From Desulfosporosinus sp. FKB (lineage in GTDB: Bacteria; Bacillota; Desulfitobacteriia; Desulfitobacteriales; Desulfitobacteriaceae), in NCBI RefSeq assembly GCF_002196705.1, contig NZ_NADJ01000025.1, forward strand, positions 1 through 60,825: 60,825 nucleotides of DNA, in the 5' to 3' direction. Both the position numbers and the translations under genes were made by a program. Positions within the stretch are counted from its first letter, which is position 1. Each line of letters begins with the position of its first letter. This document shows, in pieces, positions 9,220 through 60,825 of the stretch. The notes beneath the pieces were generated by a model, which saw only the letters and a list, made by a program, of their open reading frames with translations, had not been told where the DNA came from and ran no database searches.

Positions 9220-9300
9220 TAGAACCTTGAGAAGCGTAGGCTATAAATTCATAATAAAAAATGCGATACAAATAACGAATTATTTTTTGTAAAAAATCAC

Positions 9301-59282: not shown

Positions 59283-59335
59283 AAGAAGCGAAAAAATAAC
59301 GTCTATCTTTTAAAGACGTTATTTTTTCGCTTCTT
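59283..59335 (-). terminator. very strong terminator after the 145-residue protein
   Basis: A perfect 22-pair stem (59283-59304 with 59314-59335) with a nine-base loop and A/T-rich arms lies 22 bases after the stop at 59357. Confidence 0.85.
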
Positions 59336-60012: not shown

Positions 60013-60067
60013 AAGCCATTGACGGCCGAGTGTCCCTTCTCGCCGTCAATGGCTTCAGGGACACTCG
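60013..60067. repeat. interleaved perfect inverted repeats
   Basis: Four arms occur in the order A-B-A'-B'. A (60013-60026) pairs with A' (60042-60055) over 14 bases, and B (60027-60037) with B' (60057-60067) over 11 bases. The gaps are 0, 4 and 1 bases. Both stems are perfect but overlap, so in RNA only one could fully form. It lies between thiE and the unknown gene; on the minus strand the second stem is followed by AATAAGTTTTT and may terminate thiE. Confidence 0.8.
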
Positions 60068-60129
60068 ACCAATCCACACTACCTATTTTCATTCTTCCTA
60101 TAGCGTATTAAGCGATATGAGGAGTCTTA

Positions 60130-60714
60130 TCAAACTTTCTTTTTCAAGATGCTGCTTAACCTCATAATAGTACCGTGAATATCCTCACTGCCAACAATCT
60201 CGGTAACTAAGGCCACAGTCTCAGCGCCGTTTTTGACTACGTCAGATAAATTATGCTCCTTGATTCCGCCAATGGTAACAAAAGGAATATTCAAGTTTTC
60301 AACCACATAACGCAGGTATTCTAAACCGACGGGAGCACAGACGTCGGTTTTCGTCTGAGTTTTATAAATTGGACCAACACCAATATAATCCGCTCCTTCC
60401 CTTACTGCAGCTTGGGCTTGTTCTGGGGAATGAGTAGACAGACCAATTATGCGATTCGGCCCCACAATCTCTCGCACAACCTTAACAGGCAGATCGTCTT
60501 GGCCAACGTGAACCCCGTCAGCATCAACAGCTAGGGCTAAATCGAGATGATCGTTGACAATAAATAAGGCTCCAGCCTCACGAGTCATCTTTCTTAAAGC
60601 CAGACATTCTTCATACATAGCCTTCATCTTTTTCGATTTTTCCCGATACTGCAGAATTTTTACACCGCTCGTAAGAATCTGCTTGCCTACTTCTACGTTA
60701 CTGAAGTTTCGCAC
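60130..60714 (-). CDS. thiE: thiamine-phosphate synthase, N-terminus short
   Basis: ThiE joins HMP pyrophosphate with thiazole phosphate. Motifs are LQYREK, FIVNDHLDLAL, DGVHVGQDDLP, VGPIYKTQTKTD and VTIGGI. At 194 residues it lacks about 15-20 N-terminal residues including the first strand (YLVTD-type). The GTG at 60714 directly follows a TAG in the same frame and has only a weak ribosome site. The residues just before that stop (ELELIY) look like the missing strand, so a small deletion or frame damage is possible. Confidence 0.82.
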   Translation of the reverse strand: MRNFSNVEVGKQILTSGVKILQYREKSKKMKAMYEECLALRKMTREAGALFIVNDHLDLALAVDADGVHVGQDDLPVKVVREIVGPNRIIGLSTHSPEQAQAAVREGADYIGVGPIYKTQTKTDVCAPVGLEYLRYVVENLNIPFVTIGGIKEHNLSDVVKNGAETVALVTEIVGSEDIHGTIMRLSSILKKKV

Positions 60715-60825
60715 CTAATAAATCAGCTCTAATTCCGGCTTAATTGGGTCAAACAGATATAAAAATTCCGCATGAACACAGGGTTTTGGTATAATTTGAT
60801 TGCGTACAAATCTACCAAAATTGAG
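60715..60825 (-). CDS. possible C-terminal fragment cut by the window edge
   Basis: A 36-codon open frame enters from the right edge and ends with TAG at 60715-60717, immediately before the thiE GTG. It ends EFLYLFDPIKPELELIY. It may be the tail of an upstream gene or the damaged N-terminus of thiE. A plus-strand TATAAT with an upstream TG (60790-60795) suggests the region may instead hold a promoter leading out of the window. Confidence 0.3.
   Translation of the reverse strand, partial: LNFGRFVRNQIIPKPCVHAEFLYLFDPIKPELELIY

Follow-up and report, generated by a model that had tools for sequence, protein, structure and literature searches.

A worn copy of a dispersed double-hairpin repeat behind a thiE-like gene of Desulfosporosinus, from a family resembling the TwoAYGGAY RNA

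Two inverted repeats threaded through each other behind thiE

The window, i.e. the whole analyzed stretch of 60,825 nucleotides from Desulfosporosinus sp. FKB (contig NZ_NADJ01000025.1), encodes a thiE-like gene close to its end. About 50 nt behind the stop codon of this gene begins a compact site in which two perfect inverted repeats are interleaved in the order A-B-A'-B'. Parts of the site correspond to M1, a dispersed repeat family, and to M2, a module found within it, both of which are described below. The features are:

60130..60714, minus strand: thiE-like gene (TMP-TENI, PF02581, 213.7 bits)
60013..60026, no strand assigned: arm A, AAGCCATTGACGGC, 14 nt, perfect with A'; not a feature of the M1 family
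60027..60037, minus strand: arm B, CGAGTGTCCCT, one half of the conserved outer stem in hairpin 1 of M1
Between arms B and A': spacer TCTC of the window copy, 4 nt
60042..60055, minus strand: arm A', GCCGTCAATGGCTT, pairing with arm A over 14 nt
60042-60053, minus strand: apical hairpin of M1 hairpin 1, GCC-AUUGAC-GGC, within arm A'
60045..60050, minus strand: apical loop AUUGAC, its GGA lost; most copies have ANGGAY here
Between arms A' and B': spacer C of the window copy, 1 nt
60057..60067, minus strand: arm B', AGGGACACTCG, opposite side of the outer stem
60067..60080, minus strand: remnant of hairpin 2 (GACC) with the first bases of an M2 insert, ATCCACACT (60072-60080), cut short; from BLASTN

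The listing of inverted repeats contains 60013-60026/60042-60055 (14 nt, 100%) and 60024-60037/60057-60070 (14 nt, 93%), the latter with a perfect core of 11 nt at 60027-60037/60057-60067. This confirms the layout described in a first-pass annotation of this DNA, namely perfect stems of 14 and 11 bases with spacers of 0, 4 and 1 nt, and supports its point that the two full stems are mutually exclusive. By scripted search the window contains a single interleaved pair of 14/11, and not even a 12/10 pair arose in 40 dinucleotide shuffles of it; the earlier judgment that a random origin is very unlikely is thus borne out, and a chance palindrome is rejected. At the 8/8 level, weak pairs are nothing unusual (window 3, shuffle mean 2.0), and a 9/8 pair occurs at one other place in the window, near 9280. 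On both strands the site folds much more stably than shuffles do (z of -5.1 on the plus and -4.9 on the minus strand). The predicted plus-strand fold is the A stem, and that of the minus strand is the B stem with the inner GCC..GGC hairpin, at a predicted -34.9 kcal/mol for 60 nt. A piece of a tRNA or rRNA is rejected, given that no tRNA was found in 22 loci and that a purine riboswitch (RF00167, 28867-28968, minus strand, 84.7 bits) is the sole Rfam match in the window to exceed its cut-off.

Two further observations concern the surroundings. In 60715-60825, near the contig end, an in-frame TAG stands just ahead of the GTG start of the thiE-like frame, and the thiE-like frames of relatives are longer open frames. 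At 59283-59335, between two genes, lies a perfect AT-rich hairpin of 21 bp (AAGAAGCGAAAAAATAACGTC and its complement), perhaps a bidirectional terminator; all Rfam matches to it are under the cut-off.

The window site as a copy of the M1 repeat family

As judged by sequence comparison, the site is one worn and rearranged copy of M1, a repeat dispersed in Desulfosporosinus and its relatives, mostly between genes. BLASTN with the 121 bases around the site recovered four further places in the FKB genome; of 40 genomes searched, 21 gave matches (FKB included), namely 21 of the 24 Desulfosporosinus genomes and none of the 16 others. The M1 unit is a double-hairpin repeat of about 55 nt (plus-side reading GGTCCCTTCTCGCCRTCCATGGCTACAGGGACACTCGGCCATCCATGGCCAGCGG). 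Its first hairpin is long, with an outer stem GTCCCT/AGGGAC that is equivalent to B/B' and an inner GCC/GGC stem that forms the tip of A', and it is followed by a short hairpin. A covariance model, R1, built from 29 copies without the window copy, has matches in 28 of 29 Desulfosporosinus genomes, with 2 to 54 in each (E 0.01). Across the class it matches 47 of 82 genomes, distributed over 12 of 27 genera; none of the 3 genomes of family f2 and none of the 9 of family f4 are among these. The first-pass annotation had made its reading depend on further copies and conservation, and copies of the B hairpin are indeed found in those 28 genomes; B/B' is a conserved hairpin with features of a protein site.

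R1 matches the window copy at 60029-60068 (42.8 bits, E 4.4e-7). This match is reported on the plus strand, and the GGA loops of the family lie on the opposite strand, here the minus strand, which runs in the direction of the thiE-like gene. A weak R1 match on the minus side (18.2 bits) fits the near-palindromy of the M1 unit. In BLASTN, 60037-60080 matches an M2-bearing copy elsewhere in the FKB genome (L003) at 84%; the second hairpin of the window copy ends after GACC and then runs into the start of M2, as in the M2-bearing copies of this genome.

Comparison with the aligned copies indicates what in the window is peculiar to it. Its first loop is one of just 5 of 108 hairpin-1 loops without ANGGA. 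The outer stem (B) has 11 bp vs 6 in 100 of 129 entries (129 of 133 entries kept, aligned matches longer than 62 nt being left out). An upstream stretch that pairs with A' over at least 10 nt is seen in only two of the 133 aligned entries (116 distinct sequences), with 14 nt in the window and 12 nt in L176, an entry from another genus. Both arm A and the lengthened arm B are outliers among the aligned copies and are therefore best regarded as local features. Arm A is probably a local inverted copy of A', and both peculiarities probably arose by an inverted local duplication or a template switch within the nearly palindromic unit. The window copy would then have retained hairpin 1 with a lengthened stem, lost its GGA and been truncated in hairpin 2. 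With arm A unconserved, a conserved switch employing it is rejected. From the earlier reading, the mutually exclusive stems, the non-chance origin and the conserved B/B' hairpin stand; the A-B-A'-B' device using arm A does not.

Conserved pairing, paired GGA loops and a possible link to CsrA

Maintained pairing of the M1 stems was examined in three alignments: 1) A2; 2) A3, with 35 matches (30 distinct) from other genera; 3) A4, the genus-level set of 69 matches (67 distinct), of which the window copy is one. The three share some places under different locus identifiers. Paired cells amount to 96.8%, 95.5% and 98.4% in A2, A3 and A4, and changes on both sides are seen in 6, 9 and 6 of 16 pairs, respectively; one outer pair in A4 occurs as CG, AU, GC and UA. 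The covariation scores are 0.192 in A2 (shuffled mean 0.105), 0.236 in A3 (0.119) and 0.232 in A4 (0.111); in each case none of 500 shuffles reaches the score, and it also exceeds those of all slid versions. The pair-type measure was reached by 32, 14 and 2 of 500 shuffles in A2, A3 and A4, and the measure of doubly changed pairs by 9 of 500 in A4; given the kinship among copies and the use of the model to fit A3 and A4, all these shuffle counts overstate independence and are not probabilities. Wobble pairs in the stems number 10 vs 13 (without loop-closing positions and without the pair at columns 39/56), which does not identify the transcribed strand. A by-eye wobble count in A2 that had pointed to the plus strand was discarded, as most such cells are loop-closing positions.

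The loops are the second conserved element. Among the 116 distinct aligned copies, ANGGA with a free N is present in the first loop in 103 of 108 cases and in the second in 108 of 114 (8 first and 2 second loops with gaps set aside). Both loops read ANGGAY, on the strand opposite the plus side of M1. The family thus displays two neighboring ANGGAY-type hairpins with covarying stems, an arrangement resembling the core of the TwoAYGGAY RNA (RF01731). This RNA was listed as a probable RNA by Weinberg and others (PMC2864571), and in the available text of Gardner and Eldai (PMC4333381) it is proposed as a CsrA-binding RNA of Clostridia, the paired GGA loops being suited to the CsrA dimer; CsrA-binding sRNAs in Clostridia figure there as predicted and not yet validated.

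Direct matches between the two families are weak. The RF01731 model, of 168 positions, aligns through its conserved core with the opposite strand of one M1 locus (L190) at 36.6 bits vs a cut-off of 43, and has no match on seven M1-bearing loci searched with Rfam. In the window RF01731 stays below the cut-off, with no match listed on L001; the window copy does not have two AYGGAY hairpins, its loop being AUUGAC and its hairpin 2 truncated. RF01731 matches 39 of 82 class genomes, 25 of them above cut-off, and the FKB genome has a single match barely above it (C35:369984-370131, 43.2 bits). In the reverse direction, eight RF01731 loci were searched with R1: five have a weak match on the opposite strand (15.0-17.4 bits, E 0.02-0.064), the other three none. 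Among the matches listed, the two models overlap at at least two places (G021:C44:208282-208438 and G066:C76:3914-4034). Because each model matches the loci of the other only weakly, M1 and TwoAYGGAY look like distant relatives, or look-alikes that share paired loops. They have in common two adjacent hairpins with ANGGAY loops and an occurrence in Clostridia; M1 differs in being short, dispersed, multi-copy and, where listed, under the Rfam cut-off. M1 is, then, a core resembling TwoAYGGAY inside a dispersed, modular repeat; the window copy is ordinary as a site, and the family is what is of interest.

Paired GGA hairpin loops suited to the CsrA dimer are likewise described, in the text available of PMC4333381, for the sponge RNAs CsrB/CsrC and RsmX/Y/Z. 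These are dedicated sRNA genes of Gammaproteobacteria, whereas M1 is a dispersed repeat for which binding is predicted. The FKB genome has one csrA, of 79 aa. It stands beside frames that we take to be flagellin-like and FliW-like, and its product presumably carries the CsrA residues Leu4 and Arg44. Across 82 class genomes the presence of csrA is not associated with that of M1: M1 occurs in 41 of 69 genomes with csrA and in 6 of 13 without it (Fisher p 0.54), and 41 of the 47 M1-bearing genomes have csrA. The case for CsrA is thus built on the loop signature together with the published prediction. On this basis, intact M1 copies, when transcribed, would most likely bind CsrA dimers. In one genome (G044, contig C6) an M1 copy (107398-107454) lies about 0.7 kb from a csrA gene (108131-108286), which is probably a coincidence.

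Genomic context and competing explanations

In loci of 2.4-4 kb, 51 of 53 distinct M1 copies lie outside ORFs of at least 150 aa and 2 inside (70 matches, reduced to 53 copies by merging those with the same flanks). A looser rule, applied to ORFs of at least 70 aa in stretches mostly of 1.2 kb, placed 27 of 68 copies inside an ORF, a figure that we think is inflated by spurious frames in the repeats. As the two results differ widely, the placement of M1 between genes relies on the stricter rule. The orientation of M1 toward neighboring genes is without preference (26/23 and 26/24), which speaks against a cis-acting role in mRNA.

One gene end offers a series of orthologous sites with and without the repeat. 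The gene is present in 27 of 29 genus genomes and has a conserved end (..YLDAAVRY). By eye, this end is free of M1 in 10 of the 27 and bears units or pieces of it in 17. R1 has no match in the 10 empty ones; among the 17 filled ones it matches 11 at E <0.001 and one more at 0.046, the pieces in the remaining five being recognized by eye only. G010 has 53 nt at the precise point where G007 lacks them, and CCG stands at both borders; this difference may be a gain or a loss of M1. In G017, two 54-nt units and a truncated third continue the frame, each full unit adding 18 codons. Six gene-end units, one of them degenerate, have 85.9% of cells paired, and in 4 of 13 pairs both partners have changed; their covariation (0.231 vs 0.134) is reached by none of 500 shuffles, and their pair types are no better than shuffles. 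Rickettsia palindromic elements, REP/BIME sequences and MITEs are small dispersed hairpin repeats of a comparable kind, and the units of G017, which extend an open frame, add to the likeness. To our knowledge, paired ANGGA loops and hairpins nested in loops are not features of these elements.

Given this background, the window site could be explained in several ways. It might be a functional RNA switch in which alternative A/A' and B/B' hairpins govern how thiE is transcribed or how stable its transcript is. The two perfect, mutually exclusive stems, the folding of the plus strand as the A stem and of the minus strand as the B stem, and the proximity to the thiE stop would all suit such a device. 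However, arm A is not conserved, no terminator-like site is listed at 60013-60067, and T-runs of at least four follow M1 in just 1/70 and 4/70 matches. Moreover, R1 was run on 14 thiE loci from relatives (all but the six more distant thiE matches) and has no match there, so that among the loci covered only the thiE locus of FKB carries M1; the sequence behind thiE differs in these 14 loci, and an empty site for the window copy was not found among them. We accordingly consider a switch very unlikely. A plain intrinsic terminator or a chance palindrome would be at home behind a gene, and five T stand on the minus strand, 6 nt past the outer end of arm A. Nevertheless, the site does not present a GC-rich stem followed by a T-run, it is unlisted as a terminator, and M1 copies generally come without T-runs, all of which speaks against an intrinsic terminator; with chance improbable at the 12/10 level, hardly any weight is left for this explanation.

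A more serious competitor is a DNA-level mobile hairpin of REP or MITE type, with stems and loops recognized by an enzyme and without a role as RNA. It would account for the dispersal of M1 outside ORFs, for its indifference to strand and for the clean presence or absence of 53 nt in G010 and G007, and it gains from a correlation of M1 counts with those of Y1 transposases in 29 genomes (rho 0.44, p 0.018), which is raw, with genome quality and size not factored in. Against it, M1 is present in all five genomes without a Y1 match (some of these assemblies being incomplete), and the gene-end units keep their pairing in spite of changed stem letters. On balance, we view mobility without an RNA role as possible and rather doubtful. 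Together these observations favor, with good though not full confidence, the reading of the site as a diverged and truncated M1 copy with a local arm A, lying inert behind thiE, from a family whose intact copies are likely predicted targets of CsrA. The window copy itself is most likely an inert, stable hairpin rather than a working switch.

Hairpins nested in loops and the 5S rRNA connection

The M1 family is modular. Further hairpins are found inside M1 loops in L174, L177, L222 and L187, as well as in G013 and G006. The module M2 occupies the second hairpin of M1 copies and other hairpin tips of the form CCA..TGG, and in the FKB genome it also lies inside 5S-like genes at contig ends. Its contexts were labeled by simple text patterns as M1 hairpin 2 (21), 5S-like (20) and other (13), with two of the 5S-like labels (L066 and L076) going to what look like other hairpin contexts. 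Rfam places ordinary 5S genes beside the interrupted ones on three M2-5S loci, one of these genes being truncated where the contig stops. Stepanov and Fox (2021, PMC7812874) have published inserts in 5S genes and their remnants, including those of Desulfosporosinus. The M2 module of M1 hairpin 2 is akin to these expansion segments and remnants in that it is also inside 5S-like genes of FKB; the accessible text of that article makes no connection between the inserts and dispersed intergenic repeats, and the window copy lies outside rRNA. Literature listings from searches aimed at such dispersed repeats contained no papers on them.

In light of these connections, we put forward, as a speculation that is more likely wrong than right, that an order-wide double-hairpin repeat family spreads CsrA-binding sites, acting as a distributed CsrA sponge or as the seed of new CsrA-controlled transcripts, and that it grows by hairpins inserting into hairpin loops, those of 5S rRNA genes included. 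M1 would thereby bring together a regulatory RNA core, the paired GGA hairpins proposed as CsrA sites, and a dispersed repeat, which are usually treated separately. Should the intact copies bind CsrA, models of CsrA titration in Clostridia would need to include as many as 54 model matches per genome. The hairpin-in-loop inserts common to M1 and 5S-like genes also offer a testable source for rRNA expansion segments.

Several loci show additional arrangements. Contig ends of the FKB genome (L017, L018, L024, L019-L021 and L026) bear tandem 5S-like genes with M2 hairpins, and some of the M2 hairpins in the 5S-like genes of L017-L021, L024 and L026 hold yet another module. An rRNA operon in L177 (G051) contains an M1-like copy at 1501-1589 with a 33-nt loop insert, flanked by a tRNA gene and the 23S gene. 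In L186, L187 and L222, M1 copies sit at the tips of arms in larger paired structures (GGCAGTGTACA...TGTACACTGCC, with variants), which are perhaps a larger structured repeat. Finally, one of the other FKB copies of the repeat has a TPP riboswitch nearby (L004, 1294-1407, minus strand).
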